The notes under the pieces were generated by a model. It was not told where the DNA came from and did not search any database. It saw only the letters and a list, made by a program, of their open reading frames with translations. Below are positions 8,661 to 21,926 of a stretch of DNA of 43,792 nt, in pieces. The DNA is from Frankia tisae (GTDB taxonomy: Bacteria; Actinomycetota; Actinomycetes; Frankiales; Frankiaceae). Within the stretch, counting starts at the first letter, position 1. Every line of letters begins with the position of its first letter. The stretch is taken from positions 1 through 43,792 of the forward strand of contig NZ_JANEZT010000007.1 in the NCBI RefSeq assembly GCF_025403405.1, read 5' to 3'. Both the position numbers and the translations under genes were made by a program.

Positions 8661-9572
8661 TCAGGGCGCGGAGCGCTCCTCGGCACCGTCGTCGTCAGGC
8701 TCGGGCTTGGGCCGGAAGGACGGGATCTGCTCGCCTGCCTCGATCGGGATCGTGAGGCGGTTCTGCTCCGGGGCGAGCGGGCAGGGAGCGTACGGGGTGT
8801 AGGCGCACTGCAGGTTCCCCGCGCGGTTGAAGTCGAGCACGATCTGGGTGCTGCCCGGGACGGGCAGGGAGACGATCAGCCGGCGGCTGGCCGCGTAGGT
8901 CGTGAGTCCGCTCGTCGCATCGGTGAACAGGACGAGACCGACCCCCGCGAGGTGCTCGGCGCGGATGAGGAGCAGCCGCCACTCGGTGCCGTCGAGCGCG
9001 ACAACGGCTTCACCGATGGCCTCGTGGGTGTGCACGATGCCGTCGACCGCCGCGGCGACCTGGACCGGGCGCGGGGCGGGATACGGCGCGAACTCGGCCT
9101 TGATCACCCAGGCGGGGTTGTAGTCGAACGCCGGCGTCCGGACGTAGGTCTCGCGCAGCTGGTGCCGGGGGTCGAGCGAGCGGAGCAGGTCGTTCCCGCC
9201 GCGGCGGGACAGCTCGACGACGACGTCGCCGAACGACGCCGCCCGCCGGAACTCCCGCTCGCGGACGGGGCCGAAGACGTGGCGCCCGGTCGCGGTCTCG
9301 CCGTCGATGGTGAGGGACTCCCCGGCGTCGAGGTCGACGACCGGCCCCTGCTCGCCCGTGGCCCACCGCCCCGGGAAACCCTCGACGCGGCGAGGTTCGC
9401 CGTCGAGGAAGTGCAGTGCGCTGTAGGCGAGGAACCCGTACGGCTCGCGCCGCTGGTGCTCGGACTCCTCACGCCACGCGTCCCACTCGGCTCGCGCGGC
9501 CGCTACGACGGTCGCGGACTCGGTGGCTGGCGCGGACTCGGTGGCTGGCGCGGTCTCGATGGCGGAGGTCAT
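8661..9572 (-). CDS. DUF1684 domain-containing protein
   Basis: The 303-residue protein has the DUF1684 pattern. An N-terminal helix, EWDAWREESEHQRR, is followed by the GFLAYSALHFLDGEPRRVEG segment. The near-C-terminal LDFNRAGNLQCAYTPYAPC with LAPEQNRLTIPIEAGE is the conserved end of the family. The biochemical role of DUF1684 is unknown. It is the last gene of the minus-strand run that begins with an ABC importer, 49 bases after the luciferase-like gene, which suggests a role in the same pathway. Residues 6-20 are a short repeat, ATESAPATESA, encoded by an 18-base duplication. The start ATG follows GAGGAACCGACC. There is no signal peptide, so it is probably cytoplasmic. Confidence 0.85.
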   Translation of the reverse strand: MTSAIETAPATESAPATESATVVAAARAEWDAWREESEHQRREPYGFLAYSALHFLDGEPRRVEGFPGRWATGEQGPVVDLDAGESLTIDGETATGRHVFGPVREREFRRAASFGDVVVELSRRGGNDLLRSLDPRHQLRETYVRTPAFDYNPAWVIKAEFAPYPAPRPVQVAAAVDGIVHTHEAIGEAVVALDGTEWRLLLIRAEHLAGVGLVLFTDATSGLTTYAASRRLIVSLPVPGSTQIVLDFNRAGNLQCAYTPYAPCPLAPEQNRLTIPIEAGEQIPSFRPKPEPDDDGAEERSAP

Positions 9573-9621: not shown

Positions 9622-10638
9622 TCACGCCGTCGGTGCGCGGTCGTGCGCCGGGAGGCGCGGGAAGATCTCCTGCGCGATCAGCCGCAGCCCGTCGCGGAAC
9701 TGGGGCGAGGACTGCGGCAGCGGGACGCTGAACAGGTAGTCGGTCGACCGCGTGAACGCCGCGTCCTGCAGGAGCTGCTCCACGACGTCGTCCGGATCGC
9801 CGTACTTGACGTTCGACCTGGTCAGGAACTCCTCGGCCGTGCCCGGCGGCCCGCCCGGGGTGACGTACTGGCCGGGGTTGCGGCGCAGCTCGGAATCGAG
9901 CAGGGCGACCGCGTCGCGCTTGGACGACGCCGGGAGCACGACGCGGGAGATGCCGATCCGCGGGCTGCGCTCGCCGGTGTGGGCGCCGAGGTAGTCGTCG
10001 ATGAGACCCGACTGGATCTGGCCGGCGTCCCCGGACGGGACCAGGCGGTGCAGCAGCAGACCGTCGCCAGCACGCCCGATCTCGGCCGCCGTCCGCGGGT
10101 TTCCGGTCGCCTGCCACAGCCGCGGCAGGAGCCCGGCCGGCGGCGGGTACAGGGTCACCTCCTTGTCGCCGGCGGCGACGGTGCCACCGAGGGCCCGGCG
10201 CAGATCGTCGAGCGCGTGGGCGTACAGCGACTCGCGGTCGTCCTCGGACAGGTTGAAGGCCTCGAAGGCGACGGTGGAGAAACCCCCGCCGTTGCCCTTG
10301 CCGACACCGAACTCCAGCCGCCCGTCGCTGAGCGCGTCGACCAGCGCCGCCGTCTCGGCCAACCGGATCGGGTTGTCGAAGGTGAGCGGGACGACCGCGG
10401 TTCCCAGTCTGATCGTCGTCGTGGTCTGCGACGCCGCCGCGAGGAAGGTGAGCGCGGACGGCAGGCCGATCAGGGTGAAGTGCGCCTCCGCGGCCCACAC
10501 CGTCTCGTAGCCGATCTCCTCCACGAGGCGGACGGTCTCGAGCGACTGGTTGTACGTGCGTACGGGCTCGCCGTCCGCGGGAATCGTCAGGAACAGCGAC
10601 AGGCCGCGCTGCGGATTTGACGTCAGGTCCGCCGTCAC
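9622..10638 (-). CDS. LLM-class (luciferase-like) flavin-dependent oxidoreductase 1
   Basis: The 338-residue product has the bacterial luciferase-like TIM-barrel sequence. It shows ETVRLVEEIGYETVWAAEAHF near the start, RLGTAVVPLTFDNPIRLAE (the strand-helix that contacts FMN) and the segment LSDGRLEFGVGKGNGGG. Such enzymes use reduced FMN and oxygen to oxidise carbonyl, sulfonate or amine-containing substrates. The GTG start at 10638 is chosen because GGAGG lies nine bases upstream; a much longer open frame to 11520 is an artefact overlapping the next gene. It lies in the minus-strand operon between the FAD monooxygenase and the DUF1684 gene. The substrate is unknown. Confidence 0.88.
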   Translation of the reverse strand: MTADLTSNPQRGLSLFLTIPADGEPVRTYNQSLETVRLVEEIGYETVWAAEAHFTLIGLPSALTFLAAASQTTTTIRLGTAVVPLTFDNPIRLAETAALVDALSDGRLEFGVGKGNGGGFSTVAFEAFNLSEDDRESLYAHALDDLRRALGGTVAAGDKEVTLYPPPAGLLPRLWQATGNPRTAAEIGRAGDGLLLHRLVPSGDAGQIQSGLIDDYLGAHTGERSPRIGISRVVLPASSKRDAVALLDSELRRNPGQYVTPGGPPGTAEEFLTRSNVKYGDPDDVVEQLLQDAAFTRSTDYLFSVPLPQSSPQFRDGLRLIAQEIFPRLPAHDRAPTA

Positions 10639-10720
10639 CGTCGGGACCTCCGATCTAGGAGTGTGGTCAGGAACGGGCCGCCGGCCGGCGCCCGGGGAAC
10701 GGACCGCGAGCAGCGGGCCG

Positions 10721-12496
10721 TCAACGTTCGGCCAGGTCGACGAGCTGCCGGGAGCCGGCGCTCCGGGTCTGGGCCGGGGGCTGGGCCGCGGCCTGGCCGC
10801 GGCCGTAGACCAGGTCCAGCACCGTGCCGGCGTCGAGGTCGCTGCCGTCGCCGCGCCAGGCGACGTGATGGTCCGGTCGGACGAGTGCGTACGGCGCGCC
10901 GTACAGTTCGCGCGCCGCCGGATCCGGCAGGTGGATGACCTCGAGTTCGAGGCCTCGGGCGTCGGCCGCCGCCTCGAAGGCGGCGACGGTGCCCGGGTTG
11001 TCGGCGGCGAGGACGAGCAGCGCGATGTGGGAGCCGATCCGGTCGTAGAGGGTGAACCCGAAGGGGTCGAGGTTGCCGTTCGGCGCCCGGTGCCCGGGCC
11101 GCGCGTCGTCGTCATAGGCGAAGGCGTCCCAGGGCGCCGCGGCCTCGGCCTCGGCCTGCCCGTCCTCGTACCGGATGACCGACGAGGTGTCGTAGCGCTC
11201 GTCGAAGACCACCCCGAGTGGCAGGCTGCGGCCCGCCCCGAGGATCGCGCCGATCTCGGCGCGCCGGCGGGCCGCGTCCGGACTGGTGTCGGCGTCGGCC
11301 GGGACCCCGAGGGCGCGGACGCGCTCGTACGCGGCCGTGTGCCGGCGGTCCTCCGCCAGGGCGTAGTCGGCGATCCGCCAGTTGTGCGGGCGTCGCTCCT
11401 CGTCGTAGGAGTCGAGCAGGCTCGGGCCGGCCTGGCCGCGCAGCACCGCCGCGAGCTTCCAGCCGAGGTTGACCACGTCGCCGAAGCCCTCGCACAGGTT
11501 GCCCCCCGGCGTGCGGACATGCGCCGCGTCGCCGACCAGCGCGATCCGGTCGCGGTAGAAGGTGTCGGCGATGCGCGTGCTCTTGAAGAACGGGGTGAGC
11601 GACACGACCTCGAGCTCGACGTCGAAGCCGAACGCCGCCCGGGCCTGCGCGATCAGCTCGTCCGTGGTCGGGTCACGGTCAAGCGGGTACGGCCCGGCGT
11701 AGGCCCGCCAGTCCGTCTCGTTGAGGGCCGCGAGGAACCCGGAGTAGCGGTCGTTGTAGATCACGGCGGTGGCGGGCGGGAACGCCCCGAGCACCGACGA
11801 GGTGTCCGAGGTGGTCCGCACGACGAACCGGAAGTACCGCTCGTCGGCGTAGCTGCCCGAGCGCCCGATCCCCGCCAGCGTGCGGACCGTGCTCTTCCCG
11901 CCGTCGGCGCCGACGACGTACCGGGAACGGATCGTGCGCCGCCGGCCGGTCTCGACCTCGACCACCGTCGTCGTCACACCGTCGGGGTAGCTCGCCAGCC
12001 CCTCGACCCGCCAGCCGCCGGAGACCGTGGTTCCGATCTCCGCGAGCCGGTCGAGGAAGACGCGCTGCAGCACCGTCTGTGGCCGGCGCAGCATCGTCTC
12101 GGTCGAGTACCGGCTGGCCGCACCGAACCCGAACGACCGCAGGGTGGTCCCCGCGAGCTGGTGCCCGGCGAGCGAGGTGAGCAGGAGGTTGCCGGTGCTC
12201 CACTCCGGCGGGAAGGTCCACTCGTGCTGGATCCGCTGCAGCAGCCCCCACCCGCGGATGACCTCGAGCGCACGGGAGGTGTACCCCGCGGCGCCGGCCC
12301 GGACCAGCGTCGCGCCAGACGCGGCATCCACCACCGCGGCCTGCACCCCGTGCCGGTGAAGCTCGAGGGCGGCGCCGAGGCCGTTGGGTCCGGCACCGAC
12401 CACGAGGACGTCGACCTGCTCGGCGGGCTCGGTCCGCGGGAACGCGAAGGCGTCGACCTGCCGCTTCCCCCGACTGATCTCGTTGCGTGCGGGCAT
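10721..12496 (-). CDS. FAD-dependent monooxygenase, PheA/TfdB (UbiH-like) family
   Basis: The 591-residue protein is a class A flavin monooxygenase. It has GAGPNG at 34-39 in the dinucleotide-binding fold, the DG motif RYVVGADGGKSTVRTLAG, and the GD motif RIALVGDAAHVRTPGGNLC followed by GDVVNLGWKLAAVLRG. A C-terminal thioredoxin-like domain of about 150 residues, usual in the phenol hydroxylase/TfdB subgroup, is present. These enzymes hydroxylate aromatic or polyketide-like rings using NAD(P)H and oxygen. Its ATG lies two bases after the stop of the upstream luciferase-like gene, so the two are coupled. It is soluble, with no membrane segment. The actual substrate cannot be read from sequence. 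Confidence 0.9.
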   Translation of the reverse strand: MPARNEISRGKRQVDAFAFPRTEPAEQVDVLVVGAGPNGLGAALELHRHGVQAAVVDAASGATLVRAGAAGYTSRALEVIRGWGLLQRIQHEWTFPPEWSTGNLLLTSLAGHQLAGTTLRSFGFGAASRYSTETMLRRPQTVLQRVFLDRLAEIGTTVSGGWRVEGLASYPDGVTTTVVEVETGRRRTIRSRYVVGADGGKSTVRTLAGIGRSGSYADERYFRFVVRTTSDTSSVLGAFPPATAVIYNDRYSGFLAALNETDWRAYAGPYPLDRDPTTDELIAQARAAFGFDVELEVVSLTPFFKSTRIADTFYRDRIALVGDAAHVRTPGGNLCEGFGDVVNLGWKLAAVLRGQAGPSLLDSYDEERRPHNWRIADYALAEDRRHTAAYERVRALGVPADADTSPDAARRRAEIGAILGAGRSLPLGVVFDERYDTSSVIRYEDGQAEAEAAAPWDAFAYDDDARPGHRAPNGNLDPFGFTLYDRIGSHIALLVLAADNPGTVAAFEAAADARGLELEVIHLPDPAARELYGAPYALVRPDHHVAWRGDGSDLDAGTVLDLVYGRGQAAAQPPAQTRSAGSRQLVDLAER

Positions 12497-12498
12497 GG

Positions 12499-13869
12499 TT
12501 ACCGCCGCCCCCCGTCGCGGACCGAACCGCTGGACTCCCCCGACGCGGTCGCGCCGCCGGGTGGTGCGCCGGCGACCCCGAGGTTGTCCCGCAGGGTGTC
12601 GTGGGCGTACTCGCGCCGGAACCGGCCGCGGTCCTGCAGCTCCGTCACCACACCGTCGATGAACTCGACGAACCCCGCAGGCTGGACATCGATGTTGATG
12701 ACGAAGCCGTCCGACGCCCGGGTGTCGACCCATTCCACGATGTCGTCGGCGACCTGCTCCGGGGTGCCCACGATCATCCGCTGGCCGCCGGTGAGGTTGT
12801 GGAACAGCAGCTGGCGGACGGTGAGCCCGCGGCGGCGCGCCTCGGCGACGAGCTGGTCGCGACGCGCGGTCACCGCCGGCGCGGCGGCACGCGTCGCCAG
12901 TTCGGCGTAGGGGAGCTGCGCGTCGAGGTCGAGCCCGGAAACGTCGAACTCCAGCTGCGCGGTGAGGAGCTCGATCAGCGGCCCCACGGCGAGCAGCTCG
13001 TCGAGCTCCCGCTTGCGCTCGCGGGCCGCGGCCTCGGTCGCCCCGAGGACGGTGAACAGGCCCGGCAGGACGAGGAGATCGTCGGGATTGCGCCCGTTTG
13101 CCGCCGCGAGCCCCTTGACCTCGGCCGAGAACTCCCGCGACAGCTCCGGGAGCCGTTGGGAGGTGAACAGCGCGTCCGCCCAGCGGGCGCCCAGTTCCTT
13201 GCTCTGCTTCGACGCCCCGGCCTGGAAGAGCACCGGGCGGCGGCCCCGGTAGCCACCGGGCAGCGGGAGCACCCCGGACGTCCGGTAGAACTCGCCCGTG
13301 AAGTCCGCCGGCCGGGTGCGCCGCGCGTCGATGTAGAGGTCGGCCGCCGCGTCGGCGACCACCGCCTCCTCGGGAAGCGAGGCCCACAGCGCGTCGACGG
13401 CGGAGATGAACTCCTCGGCCTTGCGGTAGCGCGTCTGCGGCTCGAGGACCTCGTCGACGCCGAGGGCGGCGCGGGTGACGTCCTCCTGGCTGGTGATGAT
13501 GTTCCAGCCGGCACGTCCCTTGCTGATGTGGTCGAGGGTCGCGATCGAGCGGGCGAGCAGGAACGGGTTGCCGTGGATCGCCGGGTTGGTCGACACGAGT
13601 CCGATGTGCTCGGTCTCGCGTGCCAGCGCGGCAAGCAGGACGGTCGGATCCGTCCCCCGCCAGGGCCTGCGGTACGAGGCGGCGTCGAGCGAGCCGAGGC
13701 GGTCCGCGATGAAGATCGCGTCGAAGCGGGCCCGTTCGGCGAGCCGCGCGATCTCCGTGTAGTAGTCGATGCCGGCGATCCAGTCCGACGTCGGCGGCAG
13801 GGTCTTCCAGGCCGCATCGTGGCGGCCGGTCGCCTGCAGGTTCAGGCAGAGTCGCACCTGTCGTGTCAC
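12499..13869 (-). CDS. LLM-class flavin monooxygenase 2, NtaA/SnaA/DszA family
   Basis: The 456-residue protein carries hallmarks of the NtaA/SnaA/DszA branch of luciferase-like monooxygenases. These are the strand around ATLDHISKGRAGWNIITSQE, the SYRRPWRGTDPTVLLAALA segment near the N-terminus and GRRPVLFQAGASKQSKELGA in the middle. Members oxidise nitrilotriacetate, EDTA, dimethylsulfide or dibenzothiophene sulfone using FMNH2 supplied by a separate reductase. No reductase gene is present in this window. The GTG start has an AAGGAAGG ribosome binding site. The gene begins 28 bases after the ABC ATPase gene and ends two bases before the FAD monooxygenase, which supports one transcript. Confidence 0.9.
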   Translation of the reverse strand: MTRQVRLCLNLQATGRHDAAWKTLPPTSDWIAGIDYYTEIARLAERARFDAIFIADRLGSLDAASYRRPWRGTDPTVLLAALARETEHIGLVSTNPAIHGNPFLLARSIATLDHISKGRAGWNIITSQEDVTRAALGVDEVLEPQTRYRKAEEFISAVDALWASLPEEAVVADAAADLYIDARRTRPADFTGEFYRTSGVLPLPGGYRGRRPVLFQAGASKQSKELGARWADALFTSQRLPELSREFSAEVKGLAAANGRNPDDLLVLPGLFTVLGATEAAARERKRELDELLAVGPLIELLTAQLEFDVSGLDLDAQLPYAELATRAAAPAVTARRDQLVAEARRRGLTVRQLLFHNLTGGQRMIVGTPEQVADDIVEWVDTRASDGFVINIDVQPAGFVEFIDGVVTELQDRGRFRREYAHDTLRDNLGVAGAPPGGATASGESSGSVRDGGRR

Positions 13870-13897: not shown

Positions 13898-15667
13898 TCA
13901 GGAGACGAAGAGTCCGGCCCGCAACCGTTCGCGCTGCACGCGGTCGGTCGGTCCGGAGGTGAGGGTCGGCGCCGACCCCACGAGCAGCCGGGTGTAGGGG
14001 TGCTCGGGAGCGTTGACGATGTGCGCGGTGTCGCCGGCCTCGACGATCCGGCTGCGGTAGAGCACGATCGTCCGGTCCGAGATCCCCGCGACCGACCCGA
14101 GATCGTGGGAGATGAACAGCATCGCGACGCCGACGGTGGAGCGCAGCTCGCGCAGCAGCTCGAGGATCGCGACGCGGTTGGCCGAGTCCAGCGCGCTCAC
14201 CGGCTCGTCGAGAATCAGCAGGCGCGGTGAGCTGATGAGCGCGCGGGCGATCGCCACCCGCTGGCGCTGCCCGCCGGAGAGCTCGCCGGGGAACCGGTCC
14301 AGCAGCGACTCGTCGAGCCGGACGGCGCGCACCTGCCGCCGGACGGCCTCGTCGATCGCCGCCCGGTCGAGTCCGCCCCGGATGCGCAGCGGTTCCGCGA
14401 CGGACACGGCGACGGTGTGCTCCGGATCGAGGCTGCGCAGCGGATCCTGGAACACGTACTGGACGACGCCGTCGCGGCCGAACGCCCGCCGCTCACGCCC
14501 CGACAGGTGGGTGATGTCCCGCCCGGCGACCTGCACGGAACCGGCCGAGACAGGCGCCAGGCCGAGCACCGCGCGCGCGAGGGTGGACTTGCCCGCCCCG
14601 GATTCGCCGATGACGCCGACGGTCTCTCCCGGGCGGATCACCAGCGAGGCGCCCTCGAGCGCCTGTTTGCGGCCGCGCCCACGGCCGAAATGGACACCCA
14701 GCCCGTCGACCTGCAGGACCGGCTCCGTCGACGCGGGCATGGTCGAACTTCTGGGCTCCGGCACCAACACCGGCACCGGCACCGCTGTCGACGCCGCCGT
14801 CGGCACCGGCGGGCGCGGACCGGTGGCGGAAGCGTTCAGGCCGTACTGCTCGTGCTCGGCGACGAGCAGCCGCGTGTACTCGTGCTGCGGGGTGTGCAGA
14901 ATCGCGGACGTGGGGCCCTGCTCGACGACGTGCCCCTCCCGCATGACGAGCACCTCGTCGCACAGCTGCGCGACGACGGCGAGATCGTGCGACACGACGA
15001 CGAGCGACAGCCCGATCCGGTCCTTCAGCTCGACGAGCAGGTCGAGGATGCCGGCCTGCACCGTGGTGTCGAGCGCGGTCGTCGCCTCGTCCGCGATGAG
15101 CACCTCGGGTTCGAGGGAGATCGCGATGGCGATGAGGACGCGTTGCAGCATGCCGCCGGAGAGTTCGTGCACGTACTGCTCGTAGACGTACTCGGGATCG
15201 CGCAGGTGGACGGCCTCGAGCAGCTCGATGGCCCGCTGCTTCGCCGCGGCCCGGCTGAGCCCCTGCTTGATCCGCAGCACCTCCTGGACCTGCTTGCCGA
15301 CCCGGATGGACGGGTTGAGGTACGACGCCGGGTCCTGGAAGACGGCGCTGATCGAGGTGCCGCGCAGGGCGGTCCACTCCTGCCGGGACAGGCCCCCGAC
15401 GTCGCGGCCGAGCAGTTCGATCGAGCCGCCTGAGACCTCGACGTGCTCCGGTAGGACGCCGAGCACGGCCTTGCAGGTCAGCGACTTGCCGCTGCCGGAC
15501 TCCCCGACGATGCCGACGACCCCGCCGCGCCTGAGCCGCAGGCTGACCCCGTGCACCAGCTCCTCGTCGGCGGCGTCGTTGTGGATCCGCACGTCGGTCA
15601 GCGTGAGCACCGCGTCACGATCGGCGGGGATCTGCGCACTCGGCATCACCTGCTGCTCCTTGCTCAT
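13898..15667 (-). CDS. double ATP-binding protein of an oligopeptide-type ABC importer
   Basis: The 589-residue protein holds two complete ABC ATPase domains, a fused DppD-DppF arrangement. The first has Walker A GESGSGKS, signature LSGGMLQRVLIA, and Walker B VLIADEATTALD. The second has GESGAGKS, LSGGQRQRVAIA and LLILDEPVSALD. A spacer of about 40 residues rich in Pro, Val and Thr joins them. It would energise import through the two permeases encoded just upstream in the operon. The ATG at 15667 overlaps the permease stop as ATGA. A second ATG at 15646 has a better ribosome binding site (AAGGAG), so the true start may be there. It acts at the inner face of the membrane. Confidence 0.93.
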   Translation of the reverse strand: MSKEQQVMPSAQIPADRDAVLTLTDVRIHNDAADEELVHGVSLRLRRGGVVGIVGESGSGKSLTCKAVLGVLPEHVEVSGGSIELLGRDVGGLSRQEWTALRGTSISAVFQDPASYLNPSIRVGKQVQEVLRIKQGLSRAAAKQRAIELLEAVHLRDPEYVYEQYVHELSGGMLQRVLIAIAISLEPEVLIADEATTALDTTVQAGILDLLVELKDRIGLSLVVVSHDLAVVAQLCDEVLVMREGHVVEQGPTSAILHTPQHEYTRLLVAEHEQYGLNASATGPRPPVPTAASTAVPVPVLVPEPRSSTMPASTEPVLQVDGLGVHFGRGRGRKQALEGASLVIRPGETVGVIGESGAGKSTLARAVLGLAPVSAGSVQVAGRDITHLSGRERRAFGRDGVVQYVFQDPLRSLDPEHTVAVSVAEPLRIRGGLDRAAIDEAVRRQVRAVRLDESLLDRFPGELSGGQRQRVAIARALISSPRLLILDEPVSALDSANRVAILELLRELRSTVGVAMLFISHDLGSVAGISDRTIVLYRSRIVEAGDTAHIVNAPEHPYTRLLVGSAPTLTSGPTDRVQRERLRAGLFVS

Positions 15668-16554
15668 GACCGGGACGGGTCGGCCGAGGCGGCGAGCCGC
15701 CGGGTCCTGTTGGACCGGGCGGTCTTCGCGCCGGTCAGGGCGCGGCCGGTCTCGCCCGCGGCGTCGCGGATGGCATCCGCGAGGAGGTTGCAGGCCAGGA
15801 CGGCGGCGAGGATGAGCAGGGTCGGGAAGACCGGTGCGTACGGTTTCTGGGCGAGGTAGCCCAGGTCGGAGGCGAGGATCCCGCCCCAGGTCGGGGTGGG
15901 TGGCTGGATCCCGATCCCGAGGAAGGTCAGGCTCGAGATCACCACCAGCCCGATGCCGAGGGTGTTGGCCAGCGTGACGGCGATCGACGGCAGCACCTTG
16001 GACCAGACGTGGCTGCGGACGATCCAGGTCGTCGACGCCCCGGCGATGGCGGCCGCCTCCACATACTGCGACCGGGCGACGGACATCGTCGCCGCCCGGC
16101 TCACCCGGTAGAACACCGGTGCGAGGAGCATGCCGACGACGATCATGGCCTGGGTGATCCCGTTGCCGAGCAGCGCCGTCATGGCGACCGCGAAGACGAG
16201 GAACGGCAGGGCGATGAACGTGTCGACGACCCGCAGGCTCAGCCACTCGAACACCGAGCCGAGATACACCGAGAGGATGCCGGGGATCGTGCCGAGCGCC
16301 AGCGCGATCCCGGCGACCTCCAGCGTGCTCACGATGCTCAGCGGCGCACCGGCGAGGATGCGGCTGAGCACGTCCCTGCCGATGTAGTCGGTGCCCAGCC
16401 AGTGCTTGGCCGAGGGCCCGGCGAGCGTCTGGGCACCCCCCTTGAGCGGGTCGTAGGGTGCCAGGACGGGGCCCAGCACGGCCACGACGGCGATGATCGC
16501 GAGCAGCACGAGGGCGACCCGCGCGCTCGTGAGCCGCAACAGCGTTCTGATCAT
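15664..16554 (-). CDS. ABC transporter permease, DppC/OppC type
   Basis: The 296-residue membrane protein has the family N-terminal segment AVLGPVLAPYDPL, the LGTDYIGRDVLSRILAGA motif characteristic of DppC/OppC proteins, and the EAA loop EAAAIAGASTTWIVRSHVW. Five to six hydrophobic segments are visible. It starts two bases after the stop of the partner permease and its own stop overlaps the ATPase start (ATGA). With the partner it forms the pathway for a peptide-like, nickel-like or other small organic solute. The substrate is not defined by the sequence. Confidence 0.93.
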   Translation of the reverse strand: MIRTLLRLTSARVALVLLAIIAVVAVLGPVLAPYDPLKGGAQTLAGPSAKHWLGTDYIGRDVLSRILAGAPLSIVSTLEVAGIALALGTIPGILSVYLGSVFEWLSLRVVDTFIALPFLVFAVAMTALLGNGITQAMIVVGMLLAPVFYRVSRAATMSVARSQYVEAAAIAGASTTWIVRSHVWSKVLPSIAVTLANTLGIGLVVISSLTFLGIGIQPPTPTWGGILASDLGYLAQKPYAPVFPTLLILAAVLACNLLADAIRDAAGETGRALTGAKTARSNRTRRLAASADPSRS

Positions 16555-16556
16555 GG

Positions 16557-17579
16557 TCAGACCCCCCGGTCGGCGTCGGGGGTGACGCGGTTGAGCACGA
16601 TGTTGACGAGCAGGTTGAACACCACGACAAGGACGACCGAGACGACGAGCACACCCTGCACGGCCGGCACGTCGCCACGGACCGCGGCCTGGCTGGCGTA
16701 CACGCCGTACCCGGAGAGCCCGAAGATCGCCTCGATGATCACCGCGCCGCCCAGCAGGTTGGGGAACTTCAGGCCGAGGACCGCCAACGCCGGCGCGATG
16801 CCGTTGCGCAGCACGTGCACGAAGAAGATCCGGCGCGGGCCGAGGCCGCGCACGATCGCGCCGGTGACGTAGTTCCCGCGGTAGGCCGACACCAGGCCGT
16901 TGCGCAGCTGCCGGGCGACGTCGGCGGCCGTGTCGAAGCTGAGCGCGATCGCGGGGAGGATCAGGTGGCTCAGCCACGGGCCCAGCCCGGCCTGGATCGG
17001 CACGTAGCCGGCGGCCGGCAGGATCTGCAGGCCGACCGCGAACACCGCCGCCAGCCCGATTCCCACGATGAACGGCGGCAGCACGGAGATGACCGTGGTG
17101 AAGGTCGTGATCGCCCGGTCGGGCCAACGGGTGTGGAAGTGGGCGGCGAGCGCGCCGAGCAGAAAGCCGAACACGATGCCGAGGACGAGCGCGACCCCGG
17201 CGGCCGAGAGCGTGATGGCGGCCCGCTGGCCGAGCGCGTGCGCCACGCTCAGCCCGTTGTACCAGCTTGTTCCCAGATCGCCGTGCAGGACCGAGCCGAG
17301 CCAGTCCCCGTACTGCACGAGGAAGGGTCGGTCCAGGCCCCACTTGTGCTCGATGGCCGCCACGGCCTGCGGGGAGGCCGCGTCGCCGAGCTGCAGGTAG
17401 GCGGGGCTGCGCCCGCTGAGATGCCCGAGCAGGTAGGTGAGGAAGGTGCCGAGCAGGAACACCGGGACGAAGATCGCGAGCAGCCGGGCGGTCGAGGCGA
17501 CCGCCCGGCCGATCCGGTGAGCGACCACGCCACGACGGGCGGCAGGCGGCGCGGTGAGCGCAGACGGTGGTGCGGACAC
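16557..17579 (-). CDS. ABC transporter permease, DppB/OppB type
   Basis: The 340-residue membrane protein has the DppB/OppB layout. A first membrane helix lies near residues 33-51 and is followed by the periplasmic loop ending in HKWGLDRPFLVQYGDWLGSV and HGDLGTSW. The EAA loop is ARQLRNGLVSAYRGNYV, and the usual IFGLSGYGVY motif comes before the last helices. The GTG start follows GGGAG. It lies 58 bases downstream of the binding-protein gene in the same operon. Confidence 0.93.
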   Translation of the reverse strand: MSAPPSALTAPPAARRGVVAHRIGRAVASTARLLAIFVPVFLLGTFLTYLLGHLSGRSPAYLQLGDAASPQAVAAIEHKWGLDRPFLVQYGDWLGSVLHGDLGTSWYNGLSVAHALGQRAAITLSAAGVALVLGIVFGFLLGALAAHFHTRWPDRAITTFTTVISVLPPFIVGIGLAAVFAVGLQILPAAGYVPIQAGLGPWLSHLILPAIALSFDTAADVARQLRNGLVSAYRGNYVTGAIVRGLGPRRIFFVHVLRNGIAPALAVLGLKFPNLLGGAVIIEAIFGLSGYGVYASQAAVRGDVPAVQGVLVVSVVLVVVFNLLVNIVLNRVTPDADRGV

Positions 17580-17637: not shown

Positions 17638-19191
17638 TCAGTCGCCGTGCGTGAACGTGACGCCCTTCCAGCTCAGGAAGCCGTCGATCGCGGGCAGGTC
17701 GGAGAGCGACTTCTTCTTGGCGATGGCAGTGGCGGCGGTGAACAGCGACACCGTAGTGCCGTTCTCGTACCCGGCCTTGGCGGCGGCCTGGAGTCGGGGC
17801 TCGTAGTCCGGCGAGTCGAGGGGCGTGGCCCGGACCGCCTTGAGCGCCGCCTGGAAGGGCGCGGACGTGTAGGGAGAGCTCAGGTTGAGCACGCCCCCGG
17901 TGTCGTAGTGCTCGGTGAGCGCCTGGACGTGGGAGTCACGGCCGACGTAACCGAACAGCGACGCGGCGAGGGTCTTGCCGTAGTAGCCCTTGCCCCAGTT
18001 GGCGAAGTCGGTCAGCTTGATCGTCGTCTTGATGCCGACCGCCTTGAGCTGTCCCTGGAGGACTTCCGCGATCTGGTCGACGTTGTTGGCGATACCGGCG
18101 AGCTCGAAGGAGATCGCACCGTCCGCGTAGCCGGCCTTGGCGAGAATCTCCCGGGCGCGGGCGGGGTTGTAGGGGTGCTCGGCTTCCAGCGCGTCGACGT
18201 AGGCCGGGTGCCCCTTGGGGAAGGGCTGGTGGGTCGGCTCGCCCTCGCCGAATCCGAGCTTGCTGGCGAACTCGGCGGGGTTGACGGCGTAGCGGATCGC
18301 CTCGATGACCTTCGGGTCGGTGAACGGCGCCTTGTTGCGGTTGAGGCTCAGGAACTGCGACCCCCACTGGCGGTCGACCCCCGCCAGGATGTCGAAGCCC
18401 GCGCTGCGCGCCTGCTGGATCTGTGCCCCGTCGATCTGGGCGAAGTTGTACACGCCGGACTGCAGGCCCGGCACGAGCGTGCTCGCGTCGATGCCGAAGT
18501 CGATCTCGATCCGCTTGACGTGGATGTTCGCCGCGTCCCAGTAGCCGTCCCACTTCTCCAGGACGATCTTCGATTCCGGGACGAGATCCACGACCTTGAA
18601 CGGGCCGGCGCCGACCGGGAGCGTCTGGCTGAGCTTGACCGGGTCCGCCGCCGCGGCCACCTTGCTGGGCAGCATGCCGCCGCGCACGGCGAGCAGGCGG
18701 GGGATCTGGTAGTCCTGCTGGCCGAGGTCGAGCCGCACCGTGAGGTCGTCGATCACGGTCGCCGACTTGACGTTGTTGTACGACCCCTTCAGCGCCGAGT
18801 TCTGCTGCGTCTTGATCCGGTCGATGTTGAACTTGACGGCCTCGGCGTTGACCGGCGACCCGTCCTGGAAGGTCAGCTTGGGACGGAGCCGGATGGTGAT
18901 CTTGTCGCCAGCCGGGTTGTACTCGTAGCCCTCGGCGAGGGCCGGTTTCACGTCACGCTTCTCGTCCAGCGTGAACAACGACTCGTAGATGGGCGTGAGG
19001 TAGTTCGTCGCCCCGGTCGATCCGGTGACGACCGGGTCCCAGGCGGTGGGAATCTGCTTGGTCCCCCAGTGGACCGTGTCCGTGCCACTCCCCCCGCTGG
19101 CGGCCGAGCCGCCCGAGCATCCGGCGAGGAGAGCACCGGCCGTCACCAGCGCGGTGAGCACGCCGAGGCGCCTCTTCGTCGTTCTGATCAT
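17638..19191 (-). CDS. ABC transporter substrate-binding lipoprotein, family 5
   Basis: The 517-residue protein begins with a lipoprotein signal: basic n-region RTTKRRLG, hydrophobic core, and lipobox LLAGC with Cys25. The mature part has the SBP family 5 features: LTFQDGSPVNAEAVKFNIDR, QTLPVGAGPFKV and the AIRYAVNPAEFASKLGFGEG region. Family members bind peptides, nickel, opines or other organic solutes. Together with the monooxygenases in the same operon, a non-peptide organic substrate seems possible, but this is inference. The ATG follows GGAGAG closely. It is the first gene of the minus-strand run, so the operon promoter should lie between 19192 and the divergent regulator gene. Confidence 0.93.
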   Translation of the reverse strand: MIRTTKRRLGVLTALVTAGALLAGCSGGSAASGGSGTDTVHWGTKQIPTAWDPVVTGSTGATNYLTPIYESLFTLDEKRDVKPALAEGYEYNPAGDKITIRLRPKLTFQDGSPVNAEAVKFNIDRIKTQQNSALKGSYNNVKSATVIDDLTVRLDLGQQDYQIPRLLAVRGGMLPSKVAAAADPVKLSQTLPVGAGPFKVVDLVPESKIVLEKWDGYWDAANIHVKRIEIDFGIDASTLVPGLQSGVYNFAQIDGAQIQQARSAGFDILAGVDRQWGSQFLSLNRNKAPFTDPKVIEAIRYAVNPAEFASKLGFGEGEPTHQPFPKGHPAYVDALEAEHPYNPARAREILAKAGYADGAISFELAGIANNVDQIAEVLQGQLKAVGIKTTIKLTDFANWGKGYYGKTLAASLFGYVGRDSHVQALTEHYDTGGVLNLSSPYTSAPFQAALKAVRATPLDSPDYEPRLQAAAKAGYENGTTVSLFTAATAIAKKKSLSDLPAIDGFLSWKGVTFTHGD

Positions 19192-19868: not shown

Positions 19869-20528
19869 GTGACCCCATCCGTTGCGGTCGAGTCCGCCCC
19901 GATGCGCACGACCACCCGCACCAGACGGGTCGACACCGGCAGCCTTTGTCTCGACCTCGTCGCCACCCGCACCCCGAACGGCCCGAACAGCCCGCACGAC
20001 CCGGACAGCCCGGACAGCCCGGACAGCCCGGACAGCCCGGACAGCCCGGACCTGCTTGCCACCACAGACGGCATGGCGGCGTGGCTCGGCACCCTCAACC
20101 TGCCGACCCCGGCGGCCGGGCTCACCTCGCGTGACGTGGGCCGGATCCAGGTACTGCGCGCCGCCGTGGACCGCCTCGTCCGGGCCCGGCTCGCCGGCGC
20201 CGGCCCCGATCCCGAGGACGTCGGGCACCTCAACGTCTGCGCCGCGGCGCCGACGCCGACGTTCTTCCTCCGCGGGGATGCCTGGGCGCGGATCGAGGTC
20301 CCGCAGCCCGACCTGGCCGGCGTGCTGTCCGTCCTCGCGCGGGACGCAGTGCACCTGTTGACCACCAGCGAGCCGAGCCGCCTACGCTCCTGCGAGGGCT
20401 GCGGGCTCGCCTTCTACGACCGCTCGCCCTCCGGGGCCAGGCGATGGTGCTCGATGAGGCGCTGCGGCGAGCGCTCAGCCTCCGCCAACTACCGCAGACG
20501 CCACGCCGAACCGACGACAGCGACCTAG
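19869..20528 (+). CDS. CGNR zinc-finger protein with ABATE domain, putative regulator
   Basis: The 219-residue protein has the two-part layout of the CGNR family. The N-terminal ABATE-type region begins at TGSLCLDLVATR. The C-terminal zinc ribbon is CEGCGLAFYD...RWCSMRRCGERSASANYRRRH. The family motif CGNR is CGER here, while the four zinc-binding cysteines are kept. Such proteins are thought to be stress-linked transcription regulators. Residues about 44-61 are a (DSP)n repeat encoded by a 9-base tandem repeat. The GTG start has GAGGAG eight bases upstream. It is divergent from the ABC/monooxygenase operon and is the only regulator gene near it, so it may control that operon, which is inference. 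Confidence 0.85.
   Translation: MTPSVAVESAPMRTTTRTRRVDTGSLCLDLVATRTPNGPNSPHDPDSPDSPDSPDSPDSPDLLATTDGMAAWLGTLNLPTPAAGLTSRDVGRIQVLRAAVDRLVRARLAGAGPDPEDVGHLNVCAAAPTPTFFLRGDAWARIEVPQPDLAGVLSVLARDAVHLLTTSEPSRLRSCEGCGLAFYDRSPSGARRWCSMRRCGERSASANYRRRHAEPTTAT
20000..20050. repeat. 9-base tandem repeat inside the CGNR gene
   Basis: CCCGGACAG is repeated five times plus a partial copy, encoding (Asp-Ser-Pro)n. It sits between the first strand of the ABATE region and the following helix, so it would lengthen a loop. Confidence 0.92.
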
Positions 20529-21137: not shown

Positions 21138-21926
21138 TCAGCCGCCGATGACCTTGCGGTACTCGCGTGGGCCGTCGTAGTCGTTCACCGCATAGTGCCA
21201 GGTGGCTTGATTGTCCCAGATCACGAAATCCCCGGGCTTCCAGCCGAAGCTCACGGTGTAGTTGGGCGAGGAGGCGTGCGCCAACAGCAACGGCAGGAGG
21301 GCCTCCCCCTCAGCCGCGTTGATGCCGGTCAGGCGGATTGCCGACGAGCTGATGAAGAGCCCCTTGCGGCCCGTGTGACGGTGGGTGCGCACCACCGGGT
21401 GCTCGACGGTACCGGTCACCGGCGGCCGATTGTAGGTCCCGTCCCCCGGATAATCGCTGTACACGGCGTTGACCGACTCCAGTAGCCGCTTGAACGGCTC
21501 GGACAGGCCGTCGTACGCCGCCTGCAGATCGGCCCACAGCGTACGACCGCCGACCTCCGGCACCACCTGATAGGTCAGTGACTCGATGTTGAAAGGCGGG
21601 TTCCGCCAGGTGCCGCCGACATGCCACTGCGCGGCTGCGCCCCCCTTTTCGAGGTTGAAGACGTACACCAGCCGGTTGCCCTCGTAGCGGTGCAGCCACC
21701 GGGGGTGGTCGAACGGCTTGTCGAAGATCTGCACGGCCTTCACGTGCGCGTCCGGTGCGAGGTGCTGGCCACGGAAGACCAGGACCTTGTGCTTCCAGAA
21801 GTCCTCGCGCAGGGCTTCTGCGGTGGCGTCGTCGACGGCGCCCGTCAGATCGACGCCGACGATCTCGGCGCCGAGGACGGGGCTGGCCGGACGGGTTTCG
21901 TAAGGTGCGGTTCGGGTGGCGGTCAC
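21138..21926 (-). CDS. TauD/TfdA-family Fe(II)/2-oxoglutarate enzyme with HxG in place of HxD
   Basis: The 262-residue protein is a TauD/TfdA homologue of usual length. It has GAEIVGVDLTG near the start, EDFWKHKVLVFRGQ, the region WHVGGTWRNPP (101-111), HPVVRTHRHTGRKGLFIS, and the C-terminal WDNQATWHYAVNDY with distal His244 and the 2-oxoglutarate-binding Arg254 close by. Active hydroxylases of this family bind iron with HxD in WHxDxTW. Here the residues are His102, Val103, Gly104, so the carboxylate ligand is missing, while proximal His, distal His and Arg are kept. Fe/2OG halogenases have Gly or Ala at this site, so a halogenase-like or otherwise altered chemistry is possible. An inactive protein is the other option. 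It stands alone, with no amino acid carrier gene beside it. Confidence 0.9.
   Translation of the reverse strand: MTATRTAPYETRPASPVLGAEIVGVDLTGAVDDATAEALREDFWKHKVLVFRGQHLAPDAHVKAVQIFDKPFDHPRWLHRYEGNRLVYVFNLEKGGAAAQWHVGGTWRNPPFNIESLTYQVVPEVGGRTLWADLQAAYDGLSEPFKRLLESVNAVYSDYPGDGTYNRPPVTGTVEHPVVRTHRHTGRKGLFISSSAIRLTGINAAEGEALLPLLLAHASSPNYTVSFGWKPGDFVIWDNQATWHYAVNDYDGPREYRKVIGG

Follow-up and report, generated by a model that had tools for sequence, protein, structure and literature searches.

A Conserved Branch of Actinomycete TauD-Family Proteins With HxG in Place of the Iron-Binding HxD Motif and a Putative Role in Sulfur Scavenging

Overview

The window analyzed here, i.e., a stretch of 43,792 nucleotides of Frankia tisae, encodes a TauD-like protein in which glycine replaces the metal-binding aspartate, and this glycine is shared by one clade spanning six actinomycete families. 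On balance, the protein is probably an active Fe/2OG oxygenase of a conserved actinomycete TauD branch, made under sulfur starvation, that would free sulfur from an organosulfur compound and would hold its iron on two histidines, with Glu115 filling or anchoring the carboxylate site. We infer each of these elements, i.e., the expression under sulfur starvation, the organosulfur substrate, the oxygenase activity, and the role of Glu115, from the comparisons described below. A TauD-family branch with an iron site rebuilt in this way appears to be new, and searches of the open-licence literature showed no description of comparable TauD proteins with HxG.

A TauD-Like Protein With a Modified Iron Site

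According to its translation and to Pfam, the gene 21138–21926 (minus strand) encodes a TauD/TfdA-family protein of 262 amino acids, which contains no Cys and, past the start, no Met. The start codon is GTG, and a purine-rich CAGAGGGGG lies a few bases upstream. The match to the Pfam TauD model (PF02668) covers residues 11–255 with an E-value of 1.7e-48 and 166.2 bits (cut-off 27). There are also three NCBIfam matches, all of them below cut-off and none to a halogenase, and the protein does not reach the cut-off of the equivalog for the E. coli-type taurine dioxygenase (161.2 bits vs. 313). An AF2 model built with 44 aligned sequences (mean pLDDT 93.1, pTM 0.90) matches the fold of TauD in Foldseek with a TMq of 0.86–0.88, and the first ranks of the best 50 matches include TauD (6edh), AtsK (1vz4), and PlaO1 (7qtf). 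The nearest sequences with solved structures are likewise PlaO1, AtsK, and TauD-like enzymes.

The original prediction located the motif WHVGGTW at residues 101–107, with a GGC codon at 21617–21615, and proposed that the carboxylate ligand was lost while His102, His244, and Arg254 remained. The translation agrees with this description on every point. Gly104 (GGC, 21615–21617, minus strand, as are the following codons) aligns without gaps with the Asp of the WHTD motif in PlaO1 and AtsK, replacing the metal-binding residue, and thus the protein has HxG at residues 102–104 and does not contain the HxD...H motif (2-His-1-carboxylate). The codons of the first iron ligand His102 (CAT, 21621–21623), the distal iron ligand His244 (CAC, 21195–21197), and the expected 2OG-binding Arg254 (CGC, 21165–21167) are intact, and in the PlaO1 and AtsK alignments the three residues fall on the conserved His, His, and Arg of these solved relatives. 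The roles of His102 and His244 in binding iron, and of Arg254 and Thr129 in binding 2OG, are taken by us to be those of the aligned residues in the TauD and AtsK structures.

The Fe/2OG sulfonate and sulfate-ester dioxygenases TauD, AtsK, and Rv3406 share the fold (28–35% identity among the structural matches listed), the two His, and the Arg and Thr for 2OG with the window protein. Unlike them, the clade of the window protein has Gly for Asp and the typical residues Phe72, Phe112, Glu115, and Trp243, the last one placed just before the distal iron ligand. AtsK has Arg where the window protein has Lys258, and the Frankia-type HxG proteins end four residues past this lysine.

The Glycine Is Shared by a Single Clade Under Purifying Selection

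A scan of one genome per each of 84,980 species, seeded by six query peptides including QWHVGGTW and therefore favoring HxG relatives, yielded 52 loci, 51 of which have HxG; the sole exception (L052, 31% identity) has Asp. Close homologues that all had Asp would have pointed, in the original prediction, to a sequencing error or a recent mutation, and with Gly in nearly all loci of the scan both are rejected. The nearest Asp-bearing relatives (L062, L063, L079, and L080) are 36.5–37.5% identical by tblastn, or 38–39% by the measure of the genome search. At the level of whole genomes, a HxG copy is present in 9 of the 13 genomes of the genus and in 16 of the 35 of the family. In a spread of 396 genomes across the phylum, four had a match at E ≤ 1e-40, and two of these (L062 and L063) have Asp. 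To set beside the seeded scan, a sample free of seed bias was taken from 60 genomes of the class with PF02668, in which 98 matches were listed and 70 loci were read, three of the listed matches being known clade members and the remaining unread ones being partial, weak, or paralogues already included. HxG was absent from all 58 rows of this sample that could be aligned at residue 102. The plasmid search returned ten records, all with at most 37% identity, and a search by sequence pattern matched 19 of 393 genomes, while its reversed control matched at least five.

In a quick, unrooted tree of TauD proteins, in which 89 of 157 rows were kept after removing those more than 88% identical and several HxD rows have long branches, the HxG rows (28/89) form one clade with an SH-aLRT of 99 that requires one change. 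This answers positively whether the Gly is shared by a clade, as the original prediction had proposed to check by alignment with TauD/TfdA homologues. Since Asp is usual in the TauD family, the change most simply runs from Asp to Gly, although the root of the tree was not inferred. Subclade A comprises 25 tree rows from Frankiaceae, Mycobacteriaceae, Streptomycetaceae, Thermomonosporaceae, Pseudonocardiaceae, and Nocardiaceae, together with an unclassified MAG, and subclade B comprises three rows, from Crossiella and two Streptomyces.

The dN/dS of the window gene against eleven relatives is 0.05–0.24 (Nei–Gojobori), and thus the HxG gene is under purifying selection. These values and the invariant ligands disfavor decay, and the sharing of Gly, the single clade, and the low dN/dS together imply that neither error nor decay accounts for Gly104. 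In a Mycobacterium MAG (L044) and in Pseudonocardia alaniniphila (L049) the HxG gene copies are frame-broken, which may reflect assembly error or decay.

Glu115 Is the Acidic Residue Private to the HxG Clade

Positions were compared in 126 distinct TauD rows, i.e., 57 of the HxG clade and 69 others. Five positions are fixed in at least 98% of the clade, and their residues occur in no more than 5% of the other rows, namely Phe72, Gly104, Phe112, Glu115, and Trp243. Gly104 occurs in 57/57 clade members, a count that follows from the definition of the clade by this very residue, and in 0/69 of the other TauD proteins. Glu115 (GAG, 21582–21584, minus strand) is likewise found in all 57 members, whereas none of the 69 others has an acidic residue there. 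His102 and Thr129 are kept in 57/57 HxG rows, and His244 and Arg254 in all the 54 that reach residue 244; Arg254 and Thr129, the residues expected to bind 2OG, are also invariant in A1 and A2.

Seven acidic positions are conserved in the clade. Glu21, Asp26, Asp133, Glu206, Asp233, and Asp249 were discarded as substitute ligands, because between 23 and 49 of the other TauDs also have an acid at each of these positions. Glu115 alone is confined to the clade, and thus it is the one candidate for a carboxylate that substitutes the lost Asp, either relocated to the metal or anchoring a water. In the AF2 model, Phe112 and Glu115 lie where the strand that follows the HxG loop (114–121) begins, or immediately ahead of it. 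The link between Gly104 and Glu115 amounts to one evolutionary event and not to repeated covariation, because both changes sit on a single branch, and Phe72, Phe112, and Trp243 show the same clade-wide pattern as Glu115. Arg108 is invariant as well (41/41), as is Trp107, and Glu115 could simply pair with Arg108.

A bolder proposal is that His102, Glu115, and His244 constitute a relocated facial triad, in which the acid would have left the HxD loop for the beginning of the strand that follows it. The first coordination sphere would then have been rebuilt in a sulfur-scavenging oxygenase of the TauD fold, and HxG would be a false sign of halogenation. We regard this proposal as possible, but doubtful.

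The Proteins of Subclade A Are Depleted in Cys and Met

Passages of PMC8557817, PMC11022551, and PMC7661421 describe a low content of Cys and Met as a mark of the sulfur-starvation and sulfur-acquisition proteins of actinomycetes. The window protein shows this depletion in full, with zero Cys and Met, and so do 50 of the 51 subclade A proteins in their core (residues 10–254), the remaining one having a single Met. This composition is also found in part of the other actinomycete TauDs, since 18/63 non-HxG cores are free of Cys and Met (mean 1.37%). None of the three subclade B cores is free of them (mean 1.48%), and the baseline over 552 ORFs called in the loci is 1.84% on average. As for the clusters of neighboring proteins, the mean Cys+Met content is 0.25% in the NtaA/DmoA-like cluster, 0.58, 0.79, and 1.28% in three other luciferase-like clusters, and 0.91% in the DUF1684 cluster.

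Flavin Monooxygenases and Transporters Often Lie Near the HxG Genes of Subclade A

In the window, eight genes on the minus strand between 8661 and 19191 lie near the TauD-like gene. They encode a DUF1684 protein (8661–9572; two Cys, no Met), a luciferase-like monooxygenase (9622–10710; neither Cys nor Met), an FAD_binding_3 monooxygenase with an open frame of 589 residues (10721–12490; one Cys, one Met), an FMN monooxygenase of the NtaA/DmoA family (12499–13869; TIGR03860, 403 bits, cut-off 279.7; one Cys, one Met), an ABC ATPase with two ABC_tran matches and an oligo_HPY tail (13898–15667; two Cys, five Met), an OppC-type permease (15664–16554; one Cys, four Met), an OppB-type permease (16557–17579; neither Cys nor Met), and an SBP_bac_5 solute-binding protein of an Opp-type ABC transporter (17638–19191; one Cys, one Met). 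The luciferase-like and FAD_binding_3 genes are open frames whose start codons are not fixed. Six of the eight products have a Cys+Met content of at most 0.66%, whereas no depletion is seen in the OppC-type permease (1.69%) or in the ATPase (1.19%). A distance of 1.9 kb separates the TauD-like gene from the transporter genes on the same strand, and a gene for an ABATE/CGNR zinc-finger regulator (19869–20528) lies between them on the plus strand. Given this gap and the opposite-strand gene, the TauD-like gene need not be co-transcribed with the transporter.

The association with monooxygenases extends to the rest of subclade A, for which 47 loci were considered after dropping a 98% copy (L001) and a partial one (L047). 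Luciferase-like monooxygenases are encoded within about 8 kb in 33/47 of these loci, in comparison with 5/20 HxD TauD loci and 0/20 random regions (Fisher p = 0.001 and 3e-8, respectively, computed over related loci that are not independent). The count was again 33/47 when the search model applied to each genus excluded the sequences of that genus. For the narrower NtaA/DmoA-like class the figures are 21/47, 2/20, and 0/20, and ABC transporters are often found near subclade A loci as well. Outside the window, gene calling relied on a simple script based on GC3, so that the gene starts there are approximate. No luciferase-like monooxygenase was found in the DNA examined for the other 14 loci, some of which are short contigs; these 14 include 6/8 Frankia, 6/22 Streptomyces, the Protofrankia, and the Williamsia loci. 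Short flanks are present at L004, L005, L006, L008, L012, L020, and L028. Cys/Met depletion and monooxygenase neighbors would mark sulfur-related TauDs in general, since the former also occurs in 18/63 non-HxG TauDs and the latter at 5/20 HxD loci.

A DUF1684 gene lies near 5/47 subclade A loci, including L011 of Mycolicibacterium and L046 of Actinomadura, and near 0/40 control regions. At the Mycolicibacterium and Actinomadura loci this protein recurs next to monooxygenases of the NtaA/DmoA type, which makes it a possible partner in sulfur scavenging. The region downstream of the HxG gene in L015 (9736–11596) encodes a DUF427 protein and also contains an ORF that, by eye, begins like an isopenicillin-N-synthase-like 2OG oxygenase.

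Passages of PMC10863075 place flavoenzymes of the DszA/YxeK type in C–S cleavage, in the CmoO/CmoJ and YxeK salvage of thioethers, and those passages name no TauD-type enzyme. By analogy, the NtaA/DmoA-type neighbors may be of the CmoO/CmoJ/YxeK kind, which we use as a lead.

Proposed Mechanism and Alternative Explanations

In the mechanism that we propose, the substrate, either an organosulfur compound or one of its breakdown intermediates, would be oxidized alongside the NtaA/DmoA-type flavin monooxygenases and the ABC uptake system, resulting in the release of sulfur. His102 and His244 would hold the iron, and Arg254 and Thr129 the 2OG. The carboxylate of Glu115 might have been relocated so as to fill the vacant Asp site directly, or Glu115 might anchor a water in that site, in analogy to the water of human AspH. 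Oxygen rebound would remain the outcome, i.e., a hydroxylation next to sulfur that would be followed by C–S cleavage.

Human AspH is an active hydroxylase with an HxG...H motif and two His as iron ligands, and HxG alone is thus not equivalent to halogenation. Its combination of this motif with hydroxylation appears in passages of PMC10947486 and PMC13168262; the latter describes the two His holding the iron, a water in the carboxylate position, and the destabilization of that water by the loss of Asp721, and the former reports that the Asp-to-Gly form of FIH retains some activity. AspH differs from the window protein in acting on EGF-like protein domains, and it is not named among the sequence matches of the window protein to solved structures. 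The HxG clade could constitute a natural test of the purpose of the carboxylate ligand, either because the acid moved to Glu115 or because two His and a water are enough, as in AspH.

The original prediction suggested a halogenase-like enzyme, in which chloride or another anion would occupy the vacant site and be taken up by the substrate radical. HxG/A serves as the sequence mark of Fe/2OG halogenases in passages of PMC12871659 and PMC13244439, the iron sites of SyrB2, WelO5, and BesD resemble that of the window protein in this respect, Gly104 agrees with the rule of Gly or Ala at the carboxylate position, and the invariant Arg108 and Trp107 are close to the site in sequence. In contrast to the halogenases, however, subclade A has a composition nearly devoid of Cys and Met and often a neighborhood of monooxygenases and ABC transporters, both of which are suggestive of sulfur scavenging. 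The 41 sequence matches to solved structures (E up to 10; solved structures only) include no protein named as a halogenase, and a further Glu close to the site, if it pointed inward, would disfavor halide. Moreover, according to PMC13244439, Asp-to-Gly alone was insufficient for efficient halogenation in a BesD homologue, and AspH does not halogenate its substrates in spite of having HxG (PMC13168262). A halogenase or pseudo-halogenase is thus very unlikely, and the earlier suggestion finds no support here. This matters for the genome mining of halogenases by HxG/A, as practiced in passages of PMC12871659, for which a sulfur-scavenging HxG TauD branch, if true, would represent false calls.

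The fold might instead have been retained as a binding or regulatory protein. When 2OG oxygenases lose the carboxylate ligand, their activity is often lost with it, and in L059, a paralogue encoded by this genome, Val replaces Asp and Met replaces the distal His. Unlike in this paralogue, in the HxG clade the two His, as well as the Arg and Thr expected to bind 2OG, are invariant, which argues against the inactivity that the original prediction had allowed for; the low dN/dS points in the same direction, although a binding protein could also show purifying selection. We consider a non-catalytic role unlikely. The data that suggest a sulfur-scavenging oxygenase fit equally a different oxidative chemistry on two His and an open site, such as desaturation, C–S or C–N cleavage, or the use of the substrate as a ligand, with Glu115 off the iron; if the substrate were a sulfinate, a sulfonate, or a thioether, it could occupy the open site on its own. 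Such chemistry would require a purely structural role for Glu115, and in our opinion it is rather unlikely.

Subclade B and Other TauD Paralogues

The genes of subclade B (L048, 7971–8783; L050, 7977–8792; L051, 8004–8834; and L098) are 38–41% identical by tblastn, and L098 and L050 seem to represent one and the same gene. They share HxG and Glu115 with subclade A, and luciferase-like monooxygenases are neighbors in 0/3 of the loci. Their neighbors encode a spare leucyl-tRNA synthetase, a HAD hydrolase, an NAD-binding/F420H2 protein (dehydrogenase), and an amino-acid permease, as well as a DegT aminotransferase in L048, which suggests a biosynthetic cluster. Since subclade B has an ordinary content of Cys and Met and other neighbors, the altered iron site occurs outside a sulfur role as well, and a biosynthetic use, even halogenation, is possible in this subclade.

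The genome of the window contains additional TauD-family genes. The paralogue L059 (1480–2304, contig C332) is likely a true pseudoenzyme, and it lies about 1.5 kb from the HxD TauD gene L054 on the same contig. Three tandem TauD-family genes (L056, L057, and L060; contig C880, 15369–18138) encode proteins 31–32% identical to the window protein, one of which has HxE.
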